DNA from: Corynebacterium sp. BD556
GTDB lineage: Bacteria; Actinomycetota; Actinomycetes; Mycobacteriales; Mycobacteriaceae
Reading direction: 5' to 3'
NCBI RefSeq assembly: GCF_038452275.1
Contig: NZ_CP141643.1
Location: 1,488,001 to 1,552,000, forward strand
Length of the DNA: 64,000 nt
This document shows positions 13,187 to 20,960 of this stretch, piece by piece. Each line of letters begins with the position of its first letter. Within the stretch, counting starts at the first letter, position 1. The notes beneath the pieces were generated by a model. That model searched no databases. It was not told the DNA's origin and saw nothing but the letters and a program-made list of their open reading frames with translations. The position numbers and the translations under genes were made by a program.

Positions 13187-14377
13187 TTAGATCAGTTGCT
13201 TGCGTCCATAGAAGAACACCGCTGTGCCCACCACGGAGGCAATCAGCAGGGCGATAAGCCCCTTGGCCAAAGAGTTGGAGCCAGTTTCGGCGGCCATGCC
13301 GCGAACTGCTTGGGCAGAAACTGCGGAGTTTAAGTTTAAGTCGCCCTGCCCGCTGGTTCGTTGCGCATTGGCTGAGCTACCATCGCCTTGGCCGAAGCCG
13401 AAGGAGAAGCCCTCGGAGGAACCGAGCTGCGCCTGGCGCTGGACCTCGCCACGGTTGGAGCTGAGCATCTGCTCGGAGGACATCATTTCTTGCTGGCTGG
13501 GGGTGGTATCAACGCGCGAGGAGTTCTCCACGTAAGTGCGTCCATCCTGGTTGAGGTACCAGCTAATTCCACCGATGACCAGCACCGCCGGAAGGGCAAT
13601 AAGGGCGAGGCGTCCAGCTTCGGACGACCCCGCGTTGCCGGCGGCGGCACCATTGGAAAAGCCTTCGTTCAGCGCGCCGTTTCCGGAGGAGCCGAGTCCG
13701 CTGGAAAACTCTTTGATAATGACGTTGACGGGGAGGGATTTTTTAAGCTCGTTGGCAAAGTCGATGGTGAGCTTGACACCCTGATCACCGCTTTTAACGT
13801 CGGTGTTGACCCGTTCAAGGCTGTCGACGACGAAGTTGATGTCCTTGTTGTAGAACCATTTTGTGCCGTCGAGTTCACCGGCGAGCTCGCCTACGATAGC
13901 CTGCGGCAGCGTGCTGCTGGAAGAAAGGCCAACTACTTGGGCTGCGTTGTCGGCTAAGGAAGATCCGCTGGCGCTAGGCGCTGCGGCCTCGCTATCAGCC
14001 TCGGTGCGGGTGCGGTATCCAGCCTTGTCCGCAAAGACCTCAATGGTCATCCACTTGCCCGCATCGATGAGGGCGATGTCCTTTTCAAAGTCTTCTTTAT
14101 TTTCCACGACATGCTTCGTGTCCTGGTGGTAGAACCATTGTGCGCCCTCGTAGGTTCCGGCGATGCCGCCGGCGATCCACTCCTTGAGGGGAGGTAAATC
14201 CTCCTGGCCTTGTGCGCCTGAGGTGACGGTGCTGTCAGTGGTTTCTTCGGAGGTGGATCCGCCGAAGGAGGCGCTGGAGCCGCCCTGGGCAGACTGCGCG
14301 TCGGCCGCCGGAGCGACGACGAACGTCAAAGCGCTGGTCAGTGCCAGCGCCGGGAGGGACTTCGTGAGGTTGTTCAT
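13187..14377 (-). CDS. secreted surface protein with WFY/YLN repeats and variant sorting signal
   Basis: 396 residues from the ATG at 14377 (GGAG 8 nt upstream). An N-terminal signal peptide (LPALALTSALTFVVAPAADAQS) is clear. Two related motifs follow: EGAQWFYHQDTKHVVE and DGTKWFYNKDINFVVD. After a hydrophobic stretch (LALIALPAVLVIGG) comes a third version, ISWYLNQDGRTYVENSSRVD. The C-terminus is GMAAETGSN, a hydrophobic helix and the tail YGRKQLI, which has the layout of a cell-wall sorting signal with AAETG in the LPXTG position. The motif and tail are shared with the protein at 15350-16162, with the sortase-like gene between them. No known family recognised; wall attachment by that sortase is inference. 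Confidence 0.75.
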   Translation of the reverse strand: MNNLTKSLPALALTSALTFVVAPAADAQSAQGGSSASFGGSTSEETTDSTVTSGAQGQEDLPPLKEWIAGGIAGTYEGAQWFYHQDTKHVVENKEDFEKDIALIDAGKWMTIEVFADKAGYRTRTEADSEAAAPSASGSSLADNAAQVVGLSSSSTLPQAIVGELAGELDGTKWFYNKDINFVVDSLERVNTDVKSGDQGVKLTIDFANELKKSLPVNVIIKEFSSGLGSSGNGALNEGFSNGAAAGNAGSSEAGRLALIALPAVLVIGGISWYLNQDGRTYVENSSRVDTTPSQQEMMSSEQMLSSNRGEVQRQAQLGSSEGFSFGFGQGDGSSANAQRTSGQGDLNLNSAVSAQAVRGMAAETGSNSLAKGLIALLIASVVGTAVFFYGRKQLI

Positions 14378-14414
14378 AAGTAGCTCCATCAGGTGATGAC
14401 AACTCCCAAAAACT

Positions 14415-14426
14415 CTAAAGTCTCAA
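14415..14426 (-). promoter_or_regulatory. 12-bp motif shared by both surface-protein leaders (copy 1)
   Basis: The minus-strand sequence TTGAGACTTTAG lies 37 nt before the start of the secreted protein gene. The identical 12-mer lies 42 nt before the paralogue at 16162. An AT-rich TAGTATAAAT, a plausible -10 box, lies upstream at about 14452-14461. The shared element may be a regulator site or leader element; its role is inference. Confidence 0.45.
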
Positions 14427-14498
14427 GGGAGGGTTTAAGGTCGCAACCCAATTTATACTAAAACCTCTCAAATCACACGAGTCACACCAGCCACATAC

Positions 14499-15350
14499 CT
14501 AACTACCCTTATCTGGGGGTACATCCCATCCCATATTCGCCGCAACCTGCTGCTCACTGACCACCTGATCAAATTGCCACCCCACCACGGCGTTTTTCAC
14601 CGAGTCGGCCAAAGGATTCGCCGGCTGAATACAACTAATGGTCAACAACCTGCCCGGCGTGGCACCCGTGCCCCAGATCTGAGCAGACGCCGACAGCGCA
14701 TCCTTCTGCGGCTCATGCACATCAGTGGCCCGATAGGCCAACCAGTCACTGGAGGAGACTTCAGTACGCACATATAAAACATCGCCGAGTGAGACGGTAT
14801 GACGATTCGCCCGGGCGTCGTAAAGCGAATCGAAAACGGCAGGAACCCCCGCAGCCGCATGACCCGCAATAACCACCACGTCAGGCGCGTCACTGCCCGG
14901 CAGTGAGTACGGGCGATCCGGTGCGGTATAAGCGCATGCCTCACGCAGCCGCGCAGGATCAATGGCGCCATCGACCACCCGACAGTCACCTTTTTCAACA
15001 GGCGCGTCCATCCCAAGCGCAGGCACGGCAAGCTGCACGGGCCGTCCCGGCGCGATCTCTTTCGATTCGGGCGGCGCAATCGGGCGCGGGGCACTAAGCG
15101 TCGCAGCCGCACTTGGCGGCGCGGACCCATCGGAGCCAGCACCTTCGGTGCTTAAGTGTTGGCCAGGTTGCGCACACACAGCGACCACCGCCGCAAGTGC
15201 AGCCAGCAACACCACCAGCGCGCCCAGGCGCCGATAGAAGAAAACCCGCCGGTCCCGGCCCCGCACATCACGGCGCGTGGCGCGCGGCCGGGGCGGCCGG
15301 GGCGGCGGGGTCCGGGGTACGTAGCCCGGCCGAGGCCTACTGGTTGGCAC
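14499..15350 (-). CDS. sortase-like transpeptidase (class E/F-like), type II membrane protein
   Basis: 283 residues. A Pro/Arg-rich cytoplasmic head precedes one membrane helix (residues 41-59, ALVVLLAALAAVVAVCA) and a sortase-type domain. LAVPALGMDAPVEKGDCRV is the typical start of the fold. The catalytic His fits VVVIAGHAA (His164) and the Cys fits LLTISCIQP (Cys240). No Arg follows Cys240 at all, so the third catalytic residue is not in its usual place; Lys252 is the nearest basic residue. The GTG start overlaps the stop of the upstream surface-protein gene by one base, so the two are coupled. Likely substrates are the two flanking secreted proteins. Confidence 0.75.
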   Translation of the reverse strand: MPTSRPRPGYVPRTPPPRPPRPRATRRDVRGRDRRVFFYRRLGALVVLLAALAAVVAVCAQPGQHLSTEGAGSDGSAPPSAAATLSAPRPIAPPESKEIAPGRPVQLAVPALGMDAPVEKGDCRVVDGAIDPARLREACAYTAPDRPYSLPGSDAPDVVVIAGHAAAGVPAVFDSLYDARANRHTVSLGDVLYVRTEVSSSDWLAYRATDVHEPQKDALSASAQIWGTGATPGRLLTISCIQPANPLADSVKNAVVGWQFDQVVSEQQVAANMGWDVPPDKGS

Positions 15351-16162
15351 TACGCCAGCCAGCGGCGCCCGTAAGCGTAGAAGGCGGCACCCAGCACGGA
15401 GGCAACAAGCAAGGCCGCCAAAGCGCGCGGCACCGTGTTATCGCCGGTCTGCGCGCTCATGCCGCGTTCCGAAGCGGCGGCAGCAACCGGGGCTTGCACC
15501 TGGGGCATGTCGTGGGCATCTCCGGCGGTTTTACTTACTCCGACTAGCCCGCCGCCTGCGGTATTTTCTTTGCCTCCAGCTTTGGCCTCGGCGAGTGCCT
15601 GGCGGCCCACCTCGGCACCGTTGTCGGACAGCAACCGGTTGGTGTTGTCCTTTTCTTCCTGCGTCGGCTCCTTGTCGATGCGATCAATGGAGTCGACGTA
15701 GGTTTCGCCGTCGGCGTTGAGGTAGTAGGTCTTGCCCTCAAGCGCGACCACGGACGGCAGGGCGACTAAGCCAGCGGCCACGGGGTGCGGGGAGTCTGGG
15801 TCGACATCATCGGCGGAGAAGGGCACTTCCATTGGCTTGCCCTCCTCAGTGACCTCGCGGGTGGGCCGCTCAGCGTCGCGCTCAGCTTCCTGCCCGGCCT
15901 CGACCAGGCCCGCTGCGGCAGCATCAGAGACTTTCACGGAACGCTCACGCAGATCGCTGGGCAGCTCCTCGAAGGCCTTGTCCACGAGGTCGCGCTCGGG
16001 CACGTAGTGGGTGCGGGCCGAGTTGAGGAAGTATGCCTCGCCGGTGGTAGCGGCCGTTTCCGCCGGAAGTTCCTCTTGGGCAAAAGCGGTGAATCCGGCT
16101 GGGGCGAGTGTGAGCGCGCCAGCGAGGCTCGCGGCCACAAAGGTGATGCGGGTGCGCTTCAT
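15350..16162 (-). CDS. secreted surface protein, paralogue with variant sorting signal
   Basis: 270 residues. Signal peptide FVAASLAGALTLAPAGFTAFAQ, then EAYFLNSARTHYVPERDLVD and later KTYYLNADGETYVDSIDRID, the same YLN-D-TYV motif found in the protein at 13187. The stretch after it (PTQEE, LLSDNGAEVGRQA) also matches that paralogue. The C-terminus is GMSAQTGDN, a hydrophobic helix and the tail YGRRWLA: a sorting-signal layout with SAQTG instead of LPXTG. AGGAG precedes the ATG at 16162. It is the first gene of a two-gene unit with the sortase-like gene. Function otherwise unknown. Confidence 0.75.
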   Translation of the reverse strand: MKRTRITFVAASLAGALTLAPAGFTAFAQEELPAETAATTGEAYFLNSARTHYVPERDLVDKAFEELPSDLRERSVKVSDAAAAGLVEAGQEAERDAERPTREVTEEGKPMEVPFSADDVDPDSPHPVAAGLVALPSVVALEGKTYYLNADGETYVDSIDRIDKEPTQEEKDNTNRLLSDNGAEVGRQALAEAKAGGKENTAGGGLVGVSKTAGDAHDMPQVQAPVAAAASERGMSAQTGDNTVPRALAALLVASVLGAAFYAYGRRWLA

Positions 16163-16204: not shown

Positions 16205-16216
16205 CTAAAGTCTCAA
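16205..16216 (-). promoter_or_regulatory. 12-bp motif shared by both surface-protein leaders (copy 2)
   Basis: Minus-strand TTGAGACTTTAG, identical to the copy at 14415-14426 and at a similar distance from the start codon. Here it sits inside an imperfect 20-bp palindrome (AAAGTCTCAATTGCAACTTT, 16208-16227) with a CAATTG core, which could be an operator. A short hairpin (CGGCTC/GAGCCCG) follows in the leader. Confidence 0.45.
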
Positions 16217-17162: not shown

Positions 17163-20100
17163 ATGAACCACAACGATAGGCTGCGGCGCAGCCACCTCGC
17201 TCCACCTCCGCGCACGCTTATCGACGTTCTCACCAAGACCGCCTCCCGCTACCCCGACGCCGCCGCCATCGACGACGGCGACATCATCACTTATTCGGAA
17301 CTCATCGAACGAGTCAACGAGGTAGCAGACCAGCTCCACCGCGAGGGCATCCGCCGCGGCGACCGTATCGGCATCCGCATGACCTCCGGCAACCGCGAGC
17401 TCTACATCGCCATCTTGGGCACTCTCTGGGCCGGTTGCGCCTACGTGCCCGTCGACGCCGACGACCCGGACGAACGCGCCGAGATCGTCTTTGGCCAAGC
17501 CCGCATCGACGGCATCTTTACAGACGAAGGCTTCCGCCCCCTGACCACCGGCCGCGGCGGCGACACAAAGCAGCCCACGCTCGACGACGACTGCTGGATC
17601 ATCTTCACCTCCGGCTCGACCGGCACCCCGAAAGGAGTAGCTGTCACCCACCGCAGCGCCGCCGCCTTCGTCGACGCAGAGGCCCGCCTATTTTGCCAAG
17701 ACAACCCGTTAGGCCCCGACGACCGCGTTCTCGCCGGACTCTCCGTCGCCTTCGACGCCTCCTGCGAGGAGATGTGGCTCGCCTGGGCGCACGGCGGGTG
17801 CCTCGTGCCCGCGCCACGTTCGATCGTGCGCTCCGGCCAGGACTTAGGCCCCTGGCTGATCCGTCGCGACATTTCCGTCGTGTCCACCGTGCCCACCCTC
17901 GCCGGCCTCTGGCCCGCCGAAGCCCTGGATAATATACGCCTGCTCATTGTCGGCGGCGAAGCCTGCTCACAGGAACTCGTCGACCGCCTAGCTACCCCAG
18001 AGCGCGAAATGTGGAACACCTACGGCCCAACCGAGGCCACCGTCGTTGCCTCCGCGGCGCGGCTGCACCCCGGCGAACCTGTCACCATCGGCTGGGCTCT
18101 CGACGGCTGGGACCTGACAGTACTGGAAAATCAACCCGGTGAAGGCGGCGAGTTGGTCATCGGCGGCGTCGGTCTCGCCCGCTACCTCGACCCAGACAAG
18201 GACGCCGAAAAATACGCCTCCTTGGGTGACTGGGAACGCGCCTACCGCACGGGCGACAACGTGCGTGTCACCGACACAGGTCTGGCGTTTATCGGCCGCA
18301 CCGATGACCAAGTCAAAATCGGCGGGCGGCGCATCGAACTCGGCGAAGTCGAGGCCAACGTGGCTGCCCTTGACGGGGTCTACAACTCTGCTGTGGCGGT
18401 GCAAACCACCGGCGGCGGCGACAAAGTTTTGGTTGGCTACGTCTCCCTCGACAACCCGGACGAACCCTGGGACGTTTCTGCCGCCCGCCAGCGACTTGCC
18501 GAAGTCATGCCAGCCGCCCTCGTGCCGCGACTGCACGTGATGGAGGAGCTGCCCATCCGCACCTCCGGCAAAGTAGACAAAAACGCATTGCCGTGGCCTT
18601 TGCCCGCCACCGCGGAAGTCGAGGGCACAACCCCCACCGAGGCGTGGCTGGCGGGAGTGTGGCTAGATATTTTGGGCATGCCGGTGGAGTCGCGCAACGC
18701 CGACTTCTTCGATCTCGGCGGTTCCTCGCTGGCAGCGGCCTCGCTCATAGCGAAGCTGCGCGAGCGCGTACCCACCATCGCAGTGCGCGACCTCTACGAC
18801 CACCCGCGTTTAGAAATGCTCGCTGAGTTCATCGACTCGCTTGCCGCCACCACACCGGTAACTACCCGTGAGCGCGAGGTCACTGCCGTCGGTGCGGGCA
18901 CCCGCGTAGCGCAAACACTTATTCAAATCCCCGTGTTAACCCTGCACGCCGCCACCTACCTCACGTGGTGGGCTATTTTGGCCAACGCCTTGGGTTTAGT
19001 CCAATTAAGGTGGTCGACGCTGGCTGCCCTTTTCGTCGTGCTGTGTACCCCGCTGGGACGGCTGCACATCGGCGCGCTCGGGGCGCGGCTCATCCGCGGC
19101 CGAATCGTTGCCGGGGACTACCCTCGCGGCGGCACCACCCACCTCAGGTTGTGGGCCGCCGAGCGCTGGGTTCACGCCTCGGGGGCAATGAACCTGTCCG
19201 GCTCGACATGGGTCGCATACTTCGCCCGCCTCCTCGGGGCCAAGGTGGGCCGCGATGTAGACCTTCACTCCCTGCCACCCACCACAGGCCTGCTCACCCT
19301 CGGCAGCGGCGCCGCCGTGGAGCCGGAGGTGGACATGTCCGGCTACTGGCTCGACGGCGACGTCTTGCACGTAGGAACCGTCACCATAGAAAAAGAAGCC
19401 CGCATCGGCGCCCGCTCTACCCTCATGCCCGGCACGGTCATCCACTCCTTCGCACACATTGAGGCCGGTTCGACCGTTACCGGCTTAAAGCCCGTGAAGA
19501 AGAACTCCCGGTGGGCAGGCTCACCGGCGCGCAAGGTGGGACGGTCAAAAAACCGCTTCCCTGATCAGCGGCCCCCGCGGCGGCGCCGGTGGGTGTGGGT
19601 CTACGGCCTGACCTCTGTGCTGATGTCCACCCTGCCGGTCGTGGCGGCGGCTGCAGGCGCGCTCAGTGTCCTTGGCCTCATCTCTTTCAGCGGCGCCACC
19701 CCAGCCTTGGCCGCAGTGTTGTTCGCCCCGGTCGGCGGTGTGGTCTACCTCGGTGTTTCCATGGCCCTGACGTGGTTGTTCGTTCGCGCGCTTTCACCCG
19801 GTGTACGCCCGGGCGTAGCCCCGGTGCGCTCCGCTAGGGGATGGAAGCTGTGGGCCATCACGCGCTTGCTTGACGATGCCCGCACACGTCTCTTTCCGAT
19901 CTACGCTGGCGCGCTGACCCCGCTGTGGATGCGCTCTTTGGGTGCTACGGTCGGCCGGGACGTGGAGATTTCCACCGCCGTGATGGTGCCTAGCCTCACC
20001 ACCGTCAAAGATGGAGCTTTTCTTGCCGACGACACACTGGTAGGCACCTACGAACTGGGCCACGGCTGGATGCGCACCGGGGAGACAACCGTGGGTAAAC

Positions 20101-20960
20101 GCTCCTTCGTGGGCAACTCCGGAATTACGGTGCCAGGACGCAAGCTGGCGAAGAACTCCTTAGTGGCGGTGTTGTCCTCCACGCCGAAGAAGTCGAAGGC
20201 TGGCTCCAACTGGTGGGGTTCTCCCCCGGAGCGGATGCGCCGCGTCGAGGTGGAAACCGCAGGAGGGGAAGATCTCACCTATCGGCCGTCGGCAAGCGTT
20301 AAACGCAAGCGCGGTTTGATTGAGACGATGCGTTTGCTCGCGCCAATGGCCAATGCGATGATCACGGCCGTATTCCTGATCGGCGCGCACACCGCCTTAG
20401 TTGCATGGGGCTGGTGGGCGTTCGCGCTCGGCGGGCTGCTCTACATAGCCACCGCGGTTTTAGCGCTCGTGCTAACCGCCACCGCCAAATGGCTCTGTGT
20501 TGGCAAGCATGTGCCCGGCGAACACCCGCTCTATAGCTGGTTCGTGTGGCTCAACGAACTTCAGGACCAATTCGTCGAAATGGTGGCTGCGCCTTGGTTT
20601 TTCACCCACGCCTACGGCACCGGCGAGATGAACATTGCGCTGCGCTTACTCGGTGTGAAAGTGGGCAAAGGCGCCTGGATCGACTCCTACTGGTTCCCCG
20701 AAACTGATTTGTGTTTCGTCGGCGACGGCGCCACCGTCGGCCCGGGCACGGTCGTGCAAACACACCTGTTCCAAGACCGCGTGATGAGCCTGGACACCGT
20801 CACCATCGAAGCCGGCGCGACACTCGCCGCCCACTCGGTGGCACTGCCGGCCTCCGTCATCGGACGCGGCGCTACCGTCCTACCTGGTTCGCTGCTGATG
20901 CGCGGCGACGACGTCCCCGACAACACACTCTGGCAAGGCAACCCCATCGAACCTTTCTGA
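17163..20960 (+). CDS. Pls/PosA-type nonribosomal peptide synthetase (A-T-membrane tandem domains)
   Basis: 1265 residues. An adenylation domain occupies about residues 12-480: FTSGSTGTPKG (148-158), FDASCEEMW, NTYGPTEATV, YRTGDNV, and SGKVDK with the catalytic Lys470. A carrier domain follows with LGGSSL (phosphopantetheine Ser522). There is no standard condensation or thioesterase domain. Instead, three membrane blocks (around 580-640, 800-870 and 1060-1120) alternate with three hexapeptide-repeat segments (KVGRDVDLHS, TVGRDVEIST, KVGKGAWIDS), the layout of epsilon-poly-lysine synthetase and the TIGR02353 family. It probably polymerises or couples one amino acid at the membrane. Acidic residues in FDASCEEMW might favour a basic substrate; this is inference. 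The ATG lacks a strong ribosome site. Confidence 0.88.
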   Translation: MNHNDRLRRSHLAPPPRTLIDVLTKTASRYPDAAAIDDGDIITYSELIERVNEVADQLHREGIRRGDRIGIRMTSGNRELYIAILGTLWAGCAYVPVDADDPDERAEIVFGQARIDGIFTDEGFRPLTTGRGGDTKQPTLDDDCWIIFTSGSTGTPKGVAVTHRSAAAFVDAEARLFCQDNPLGPDDRVLAGLSVAFDASCEEMWLAWAHGGCLVPAPRSIVRSGQDLGPWLIRRDISVVSTVPTLAGLWPAEALDNIRLLIVGGEACSQELVDRLATPEREMWNTYGPTEATVVASAARLHPGEPVTIGWALDGWDLTVLENQPGEGGELVIGGVGLARYLDPDKDAEKYASLGDWERAYRTGDNVRVTDTGLAFIGRTDDQVKIGGRRIELGEVEANVAALDGVYNSAVAVQTTGGGDKVLVGYVSLDNPDEPWDVSAARQRLAEVMPAALVPRLHVMEELPIRTSGKVDKNALPWPLPATAEVEGTTPTEAWLAGVWLDILGMPVESRNADFFDLGGSSLAAASLIAKLRERVPTIAVRDLYDHPRLEMLAEFIDSLAATTPVTTREREVTAVGAGTRVAQTLIQIPVLTLHAATYLTWWAILANALGLVQLRWSTLAALFVVLCTPLGRLHIGALGARLIRGRIVAGDYPRGGTTHLRLWAAERWVHASGAMNLSGSTWVAYFARLLGAKVGRDVDLHSLPPTTGLLTLGSGAAVEPEVDMSGYWLDGDVLHVGTVTIEKEARIGARSTLMPGTVIHSFAHIEAGSTVTGLKPVKKNSRWAGSPARKVGRSKNRFPDQRPPRRRRWVWVYGLTSVLMSTLPVVAAAAGALSVLGLISFSGATPALAAVLFAPVGGVVYLGVSMALTWLFVRALSPGVRPGVAPVRSARGWKLWAITRLLDDARTRLFPIYAGALTPLWMRSLGATVGRDVEISTAVMVPSLTTVKDGAFLADDTLVGTYELGHGWMRTGETTVGKRSFVGNSGITVPGRKLAKNSLVAVLSSTPKKSKAGSNWWGSPPERMRRVEVETAGGEDLTYRPSASVKRKRGLIETMRLLAPMANAMITAVFLIGAHTALVAWGWWAFALGGLLYIATAVLALVLTATAKWLCVGKHVPGEHPLYSWFVWLNELQDQFVEMVAAPWFFTHAYGTGEMNIALRLLGVKVGKGAWIDSYWFPETDLCFVGDGATVGPGTVVQTHLFQDRVMSLDTVTIEAGATLAAHSVALPASVIGRGATVLPGSLLMRGDDVPDNTLWQGNPIEPF

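Follow-up and report, generated by a model that had tools for sequence, protein, structure and literature searches.

Two sortase classes and one streptococcal locus are the closest described systems to the locus analyzed here. Class E is defined by the LAXTG sorting signal and by the residues His251, Cys320, and Arg329 of SrtE1 (PMC5148588). What class F sortases do physiologically has been stated to be unknown; in Actinoplanes, a quadruple mutant for this class showed no phenotype (PMC13251363). In the AbpA/SrtB pair of oral streptococci (PMC4974636), a sortase gene also shares a locus with a surface protein bearing a distinct C-terminal sorting signal; however, that sortase belongs to another class, its substrate is unrelated, and the anchoring was demonstrated there, whereas here we infer it. 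For the genus itself, the papers describing the C. aurimucosum and C. resistens genomes mention pilus and housekeeping sortases only. A search of the open-access literature for sortase, Corynebacterium, and AETG returned nothing, and an earlier description of the pair presented below was not found there, though it may exist elsewhere.

The window, that is, the whole analyzed stretch of 64,000 nucleotides, is part of a 2.35-Mb Corynebacterium chromosome. A first-pass annotation, made from the sequence without database searches, had placed in it a sortase-like gene between the genes of two related secreted proteins, and this arrangement was found exactly there (cf. Table 1; the proteins are called substrates A and B below). 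The stop/start overlap at the A–sortase junction, which the first-pass annotation had not pointed out, probably couples the translation of these two genes.

Table 1. Features of the sortase-substrate locus, numbered from the first letter of the window
Feature	Position	Strand	Remark
Substrate A gene	15350-16162	minus	270 aa, secreted; first in transcription order
Sortase-like gene	14499-15350	minus	283 aa, GTG start; second in transcription order
Substrate B gene	13187-14389	minus	400 aa, secreted; third in transcription order
TAGTG	15348..15352	minus	overlap of substrate A stop and sortase GTG start, one base common
Sorting signal, substrate A	15350..15466	minus	RGMSAQTGDN, hydrophobic helix, GRRWLA; stop included
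Sorting signal, substrate B	13187..13303	minus	RGMAAETGSN, hydrophobic helix, GRKQLI; stop included
Catalytic His164 codon (AGH motif)	14859..14861	minus	position derived from reading frame
Nucleophile Cys240 codon (LTISC)	14631..14633	minus	position derived from reading frame
Lys252-Asn253 codons	14592..14597	minus	site of catalytic Arg in other classes; derived from reading frame
TTGAGACTTTAG element	14415..14426	minus	upstream of substrate B
TTGAGACTTTAG element, identical	16205..16216	minus	upstream of substrate A; with the former, the window's only two copies
TGTGA-type tandem boxes, 9-bp period	14473..14495	minus	upstream of substrate B

By its predicted fold, the product of the middle gene is a sortase, and one that is barely visible to sequence profiles. 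Its AlphaFold model (mean pLDDT of 83.5) consists of an N-terminal membrane helix (residues 34–59) followed by a sortase barrel, the feature on which the first-pass annotation had staked its reading, and Foldseek matched the model to solved sortases A, C, and E with a probability of 1.00 and target-normalized TM-scores of about 0.5–0.73. The sequence itself scored 21.8 bits against Pfam Sortase (cut-off 26.6) and 15.4 bits against the NCBIfam class F model (NF033748), far under its cut-off of 166; Pfam Sortase matched two of 26 homologues and the class F model six, even at E = 0.1. A PDB search with the single sequence gave no match, and the enzyme profile gave only one, to TonB, by chance. 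His164, Cys240, Cys123, and Cys139 were invariant across the 26 aligned homologues. Among 61 family members, the cysteine motif was [LV]T[IL][ST]C, and the sequence from the cysteine onward mostly read C-IQP-x(n)-[RKQS]-N-A-V-[VI]-G-W. At the site of the catalytic Arg of classes A–E, all 61 carried Asn, preceded by Arg (49 sequences), Lys (8), Gln (2), or Ser (2); the window enzyme has Lys252-Asn253. The same site holds Arg in the sampled class E sortases and Asn in 18 of 20 sampled class F sortases, a sample-based trait with no published criterion. The register at 252–253 depends on the alignment, Lys252 falling on the Arg of class E and Asn253 on the Asn of class F, and because of this ambiguity we do not name the residue that replaces Arg.

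Substrates A and B end in RGMSAQTGDNTVPRALAALLVASVLGAAFYAYGRRWLA and RGMAAETGSNSLAKGLIALLIASVVGTAVFFYGRKQLI, respectively, and both C-termini contain the previously noticed GM(S/A)A(Q/E)TG(D/S)N followed by a hydrophobic helix and a basic tail. The accompanying claim that SA or AA stands in the place of LP holds in the window (SAQTG and AAETG) but not genus-wide, where position 1 is variable (A, S, N, E, G, T, L, or P), being Leu in one clade (RGMLAQTG; L049, L055, L080) and Pro in genome G006. The consensus of the signal is R-G-[MIVL]-x-A-[EQ]-T-G-[SND]-N followed by the helix and RR, with RG-[MIVL]-x-A-[EQASR]-T-G-x-N as its wider form; the motif reaches beyond the core both ways, with RG before and x-N after it, which the first-pass annotation did not mention. 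When 26 full-length substrates were aligned, columns averaged 21% identity, but the signal's R, G, A, T, G, and N did not vary; a few tails outside this alignment have Ala for Asn (L040, L042). The other anchored proteins of the genome, partners of its two other sortases, carry LPQTG, LPKTG, LASTG, or LADTG, and one protein carries SASTG; RG-x-x-A-x-TG is thus a third, separate code in this genome. A further non-LPXTG tail belongs to a secreted protein of the same genome (L132), which ends in GNSASTGSKLGP, a helix, and RRRRKK.

Substrate A is composed of a signal peptide, two YLN-type motifs, helical segments, a disordered linker, and the C-terminal sorting signal, and substrate B contains three YLN-type motifs and the same signal. 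Besides the YLN-D-TYV motif already recognized in both proteins (YYLNADGETYV and WYLNQDGRTYV), further copies are YFLNSARTHYV in A and WFYNKDINFVV and WFYHQDTKHVV in B. The paralogy of A and B is confirmed, with 30% identity overall and the likeness mainly in the C-terminal half. The conserved unit upstream of the signal is approximately GGxTWYLNxDGxTYV, followed by a PTxEExxAS helix, with varied repeats toward the N-terminus. The model of substrate A (pLDDT 73, pTM 0.35) was confident in the YLN units and helices and less so in the rest, and a structure search with it found no structural relatives. None of the curated families covers the window substrates, and the pilin reading of these proteins was rejected, since no pilin family was among the matches of the 26 substrates. 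Choline-binding repeats were matched in some substrate relatives, mostly below the Pfam cut-off and in one member above it, and not in the window substrates. Some YLN motifs show a weak resemblance to these cell-wall-binding repeats, a faint lead on which the substrates are possibly envelope-binding.

Relatives of the enzyme were found in 80 of 201 Corynebacterium genomes (≈40%). Their possible partners were searched for with a profile of the C-terminal 38 residues of 30 sequences, matches with E < 1e-7 being regarded as strong. Such matches occurred in 73 of the 80 enzyme-positive genomes versus none of the 121 enzyme-negative ones, among the limited number of candidates scored per genome and with a profile trained on enzyme-linked tails, which very divergent tails elsewhere could escape. 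The nominal Fisher p value for this co-occurrence (3.5e-47) is overstated, since related genomes are not independent. Eighty-eight of the 91 strong tails lay on the contig of the enzyme, and 85 within 3.3 kb of its gene. The surroundings of the pair differ by clade, being the ppa/rhodanese/MarR region, a ribosomal-protein operon in which rpl genes separate enzyme and substrate, or the vicinity of pilus genes. The persistence of the linkage across these different contexts argues against mere synteny, and since strong tails occur only in enzyme-bearing genomes, the pairing is not due to chance. Many genomes contain a single substrate gene only, and some (G121, G163, G174, G415) have two or more copies of the enzyme. 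Of the seven enzyme-positive genomes without a strong tail, three have divergent tails (G091, G163, G174), one has a weak tail at a contig end (G113), and none was found in G140, G148, and G152, the last having a broken enzyme gene. In some genomes (L068, L139, L144, L145), a LASTG protein of 1000–1160 aa adjoins the enzyme gene and is possibly a second kind of substrate.

The first-pass annotation had proposed to look for the three-gene arrangement in actinobacteria; what recurs in Corynebacterium is the enzyme with a tagged partner. The idea that enzyme and substrates form a dedicated set with an altered recognition motif gains support from co-occurrence, context-independent proximity, tag conservation, and the modeled sortase barrel. 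On the strength of these comparisons, a functional connection between enzyme and tag is very probable. We propose, with a probability of roughly three in four, that the locus is a dedicated sortase system in which a class F-related enzyme reads an extended signal and anchors YLN-motif proteins on the cell wall. The stop/start overlap, the upstream elements common to both substrate genes, the distinctness of the tag from the genome's other sorting codes, and the tagged neighbors of class F enzymes also speak for this reading; the unusual form of the Arg site, the seven enzyme-positive genomes lacking a strong tail, and the LASTG neighbors weigh against it. The signal peptide would export both substrates, and the C-terminal helix and basic tail would hold them in the membrane, where the membrane-anchored sortase would recognize RG-[MIVL]-x-A-[EQ]-T-G-x-N. 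Cys240 would attack the Thr-Gly bond of the signal, an amino group, most probably that of a peptidoglycan precursor, would accept the substrate, and the YLN-motif proteins would finish on the cell wall. This is a real, conserved, un-annotated sortase-substrate system; its mechanism we infer by analogy, and so too the Thr-Gly cleavage, the acceptor, where the substrates end up, and what they do.

As to its class, the enzyme is related to class F, yet the curated cut-off does not allow it to be filed there. In local mode, hhalign favored class F (E = 6.6e-7 versus 1.5e-5 for class E), whereas the order was reversed in global mode (1.6e-7 for class E versus 3.3e-7 for class F). The relation is supported by the Asn described above, by the common landmarks GH.....PAVF and [VI][YW]G...LxxTxC, and by weak matches of the enzyme beyond Corynebacterium, three of four of which coincide with class F loci. 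Because the two hhalign modes disagree and Lys252-Asn253 can be aligned in more than one register, we conclude with moderate confidence that class F is the nearest relative, somewhat nearer than class E. Searches across the taxonomic class and family gave no strong match beyond Corynebacterium except for one record labeled Micromonospora sp. HM5-17 (L045), in which the neighboring genes are nearly identical to those of C. tuberculostearicum (L060, L062); this contig is probably a contamination.

The likeness extends to the partners. We inspected 40 class F loci of other actinobacteria (L148–L187) with flanks of about 5 kb on each side, and at about 16 of them, counted by eye after a loose hydrophobicity-and-TG filter without a shuffled control, there was a secreted neighbor, in most cases immediately upstream and in the same orientation, with a G-[VAMP]-x-TG-type or GG[VA]xTG tail (e.g. 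PSGGVATGGG), a helix, and RRR. These neighbors, which by reading of their sequences include CHRD-like, DUF4397-like, and ice-binding-like proteins, are candidate natural class F substrates, and their occurrence suggests that in the class F branch sortases habitually have dedicated partners whose tags contain neither Leu nor Pro. However, the partner signal is GG[VA]xTGxG there and RGxxAxTGxN here, and the Corynebacterium family differs from class F in its invariant Cys123 and Cys139, in its IQP and NAVVGW motifs, and in the confinement of its strong matches to one genus. One might tentatively see in it a separate, Corynebacterium-restricted sortase class, marked by Asn with a variable neighbor for the catalytic Arg, by an extended two-sided signal, and by an undescribed envelope protein family, but we are inclined to doubt this.

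The missing canonical Arg also raises the thought that the sortase fold here serves a substrate-releasing processing protease or a weak catalyst, since Lys-Asn, Gln-Asn, or Ser-Asn stands where the conserved Arg is expected; we regard this as improbable, because most sampled class F enzymes also have Asn and no Arg at that site, and because His and Cys are strongly conserved. Very little likelihood is left for an ordinary class E housekeeping-type sortase with drifted LAXTG signals, LAXTG being the signal that the first-pass annotation had cited for class E. The fold is common to both, class E structures are among the top Foldseek matches, global hhalign slightly favors class E, Ala occupies signal position 2 as in LAXTG (PMC5148588), and one clade even has RGMLAQTG. 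Nonetheless, the enzyme gave no match with the class E model NF033747 up to E = 1, whereas the matches of this model in the same genome were the two other sortases, namely the class C enzyme of the pilus cluster (L001) and a distinct class E sortase (L002/L118). Moreover, the C-x8-R of class E, with its Arg after Cys, is absent, and signal position 1 is freely variable and need not be Leu. The class E assignment was rejected on the grounds of the lacking NF033747 match, the local hhalign result, and the absent C-x8-R, the global comparison being non-discriminating. Just as unlikely is a pilus-type polymerizing assembly in which the sortase would join substrates A and B into fibers, as its position between them and the class C pilus genes adjoining the locus in several genomes might suggest, for the substrates match no pilin family, many genomes have a single substrate gene, and the genome's own pilus cluster is separate and has its class C sortase (L001, L128–L130).

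In the dedicated class F-related system proposed above, enzyme and substrate can be clearly matched and the genus is tractable, so that both specificity and the need for a catalytic Arg become directly testable. Its signal is distinct from LPXTG and LAXTG, it points to an overlooked surface-protein family in many Corynebacterium species, and its enzyme could become a further, orthogonal tool for ligating proteins.

Recurrent DNA elements precede the substrate genes. The TTGAGACTT core was found upstream of 23 of 68 substrates versus 18 of 7830 control windows, sometimes as an inverted repeat (L026), and degenerate TGTGA-type boxes upstream of 31 of 68 versus 29 of 7830; strict TGTGA-type sites number only two in the source genome. 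MtrA and PhoR were not accepted as regulators, since their boxes in C. glutamicum repeat every 11 bp versus 9 bp here. Farther along the window (17163-20960) lies the gene of a 1265-aa protein whose sequence reads like that of a polylysine synthetase, with an adenylation/carrier domain joined to membrane and hexapeptide-repeat regions, and a similar gene is found near the pair at two other loci (L007, L033).
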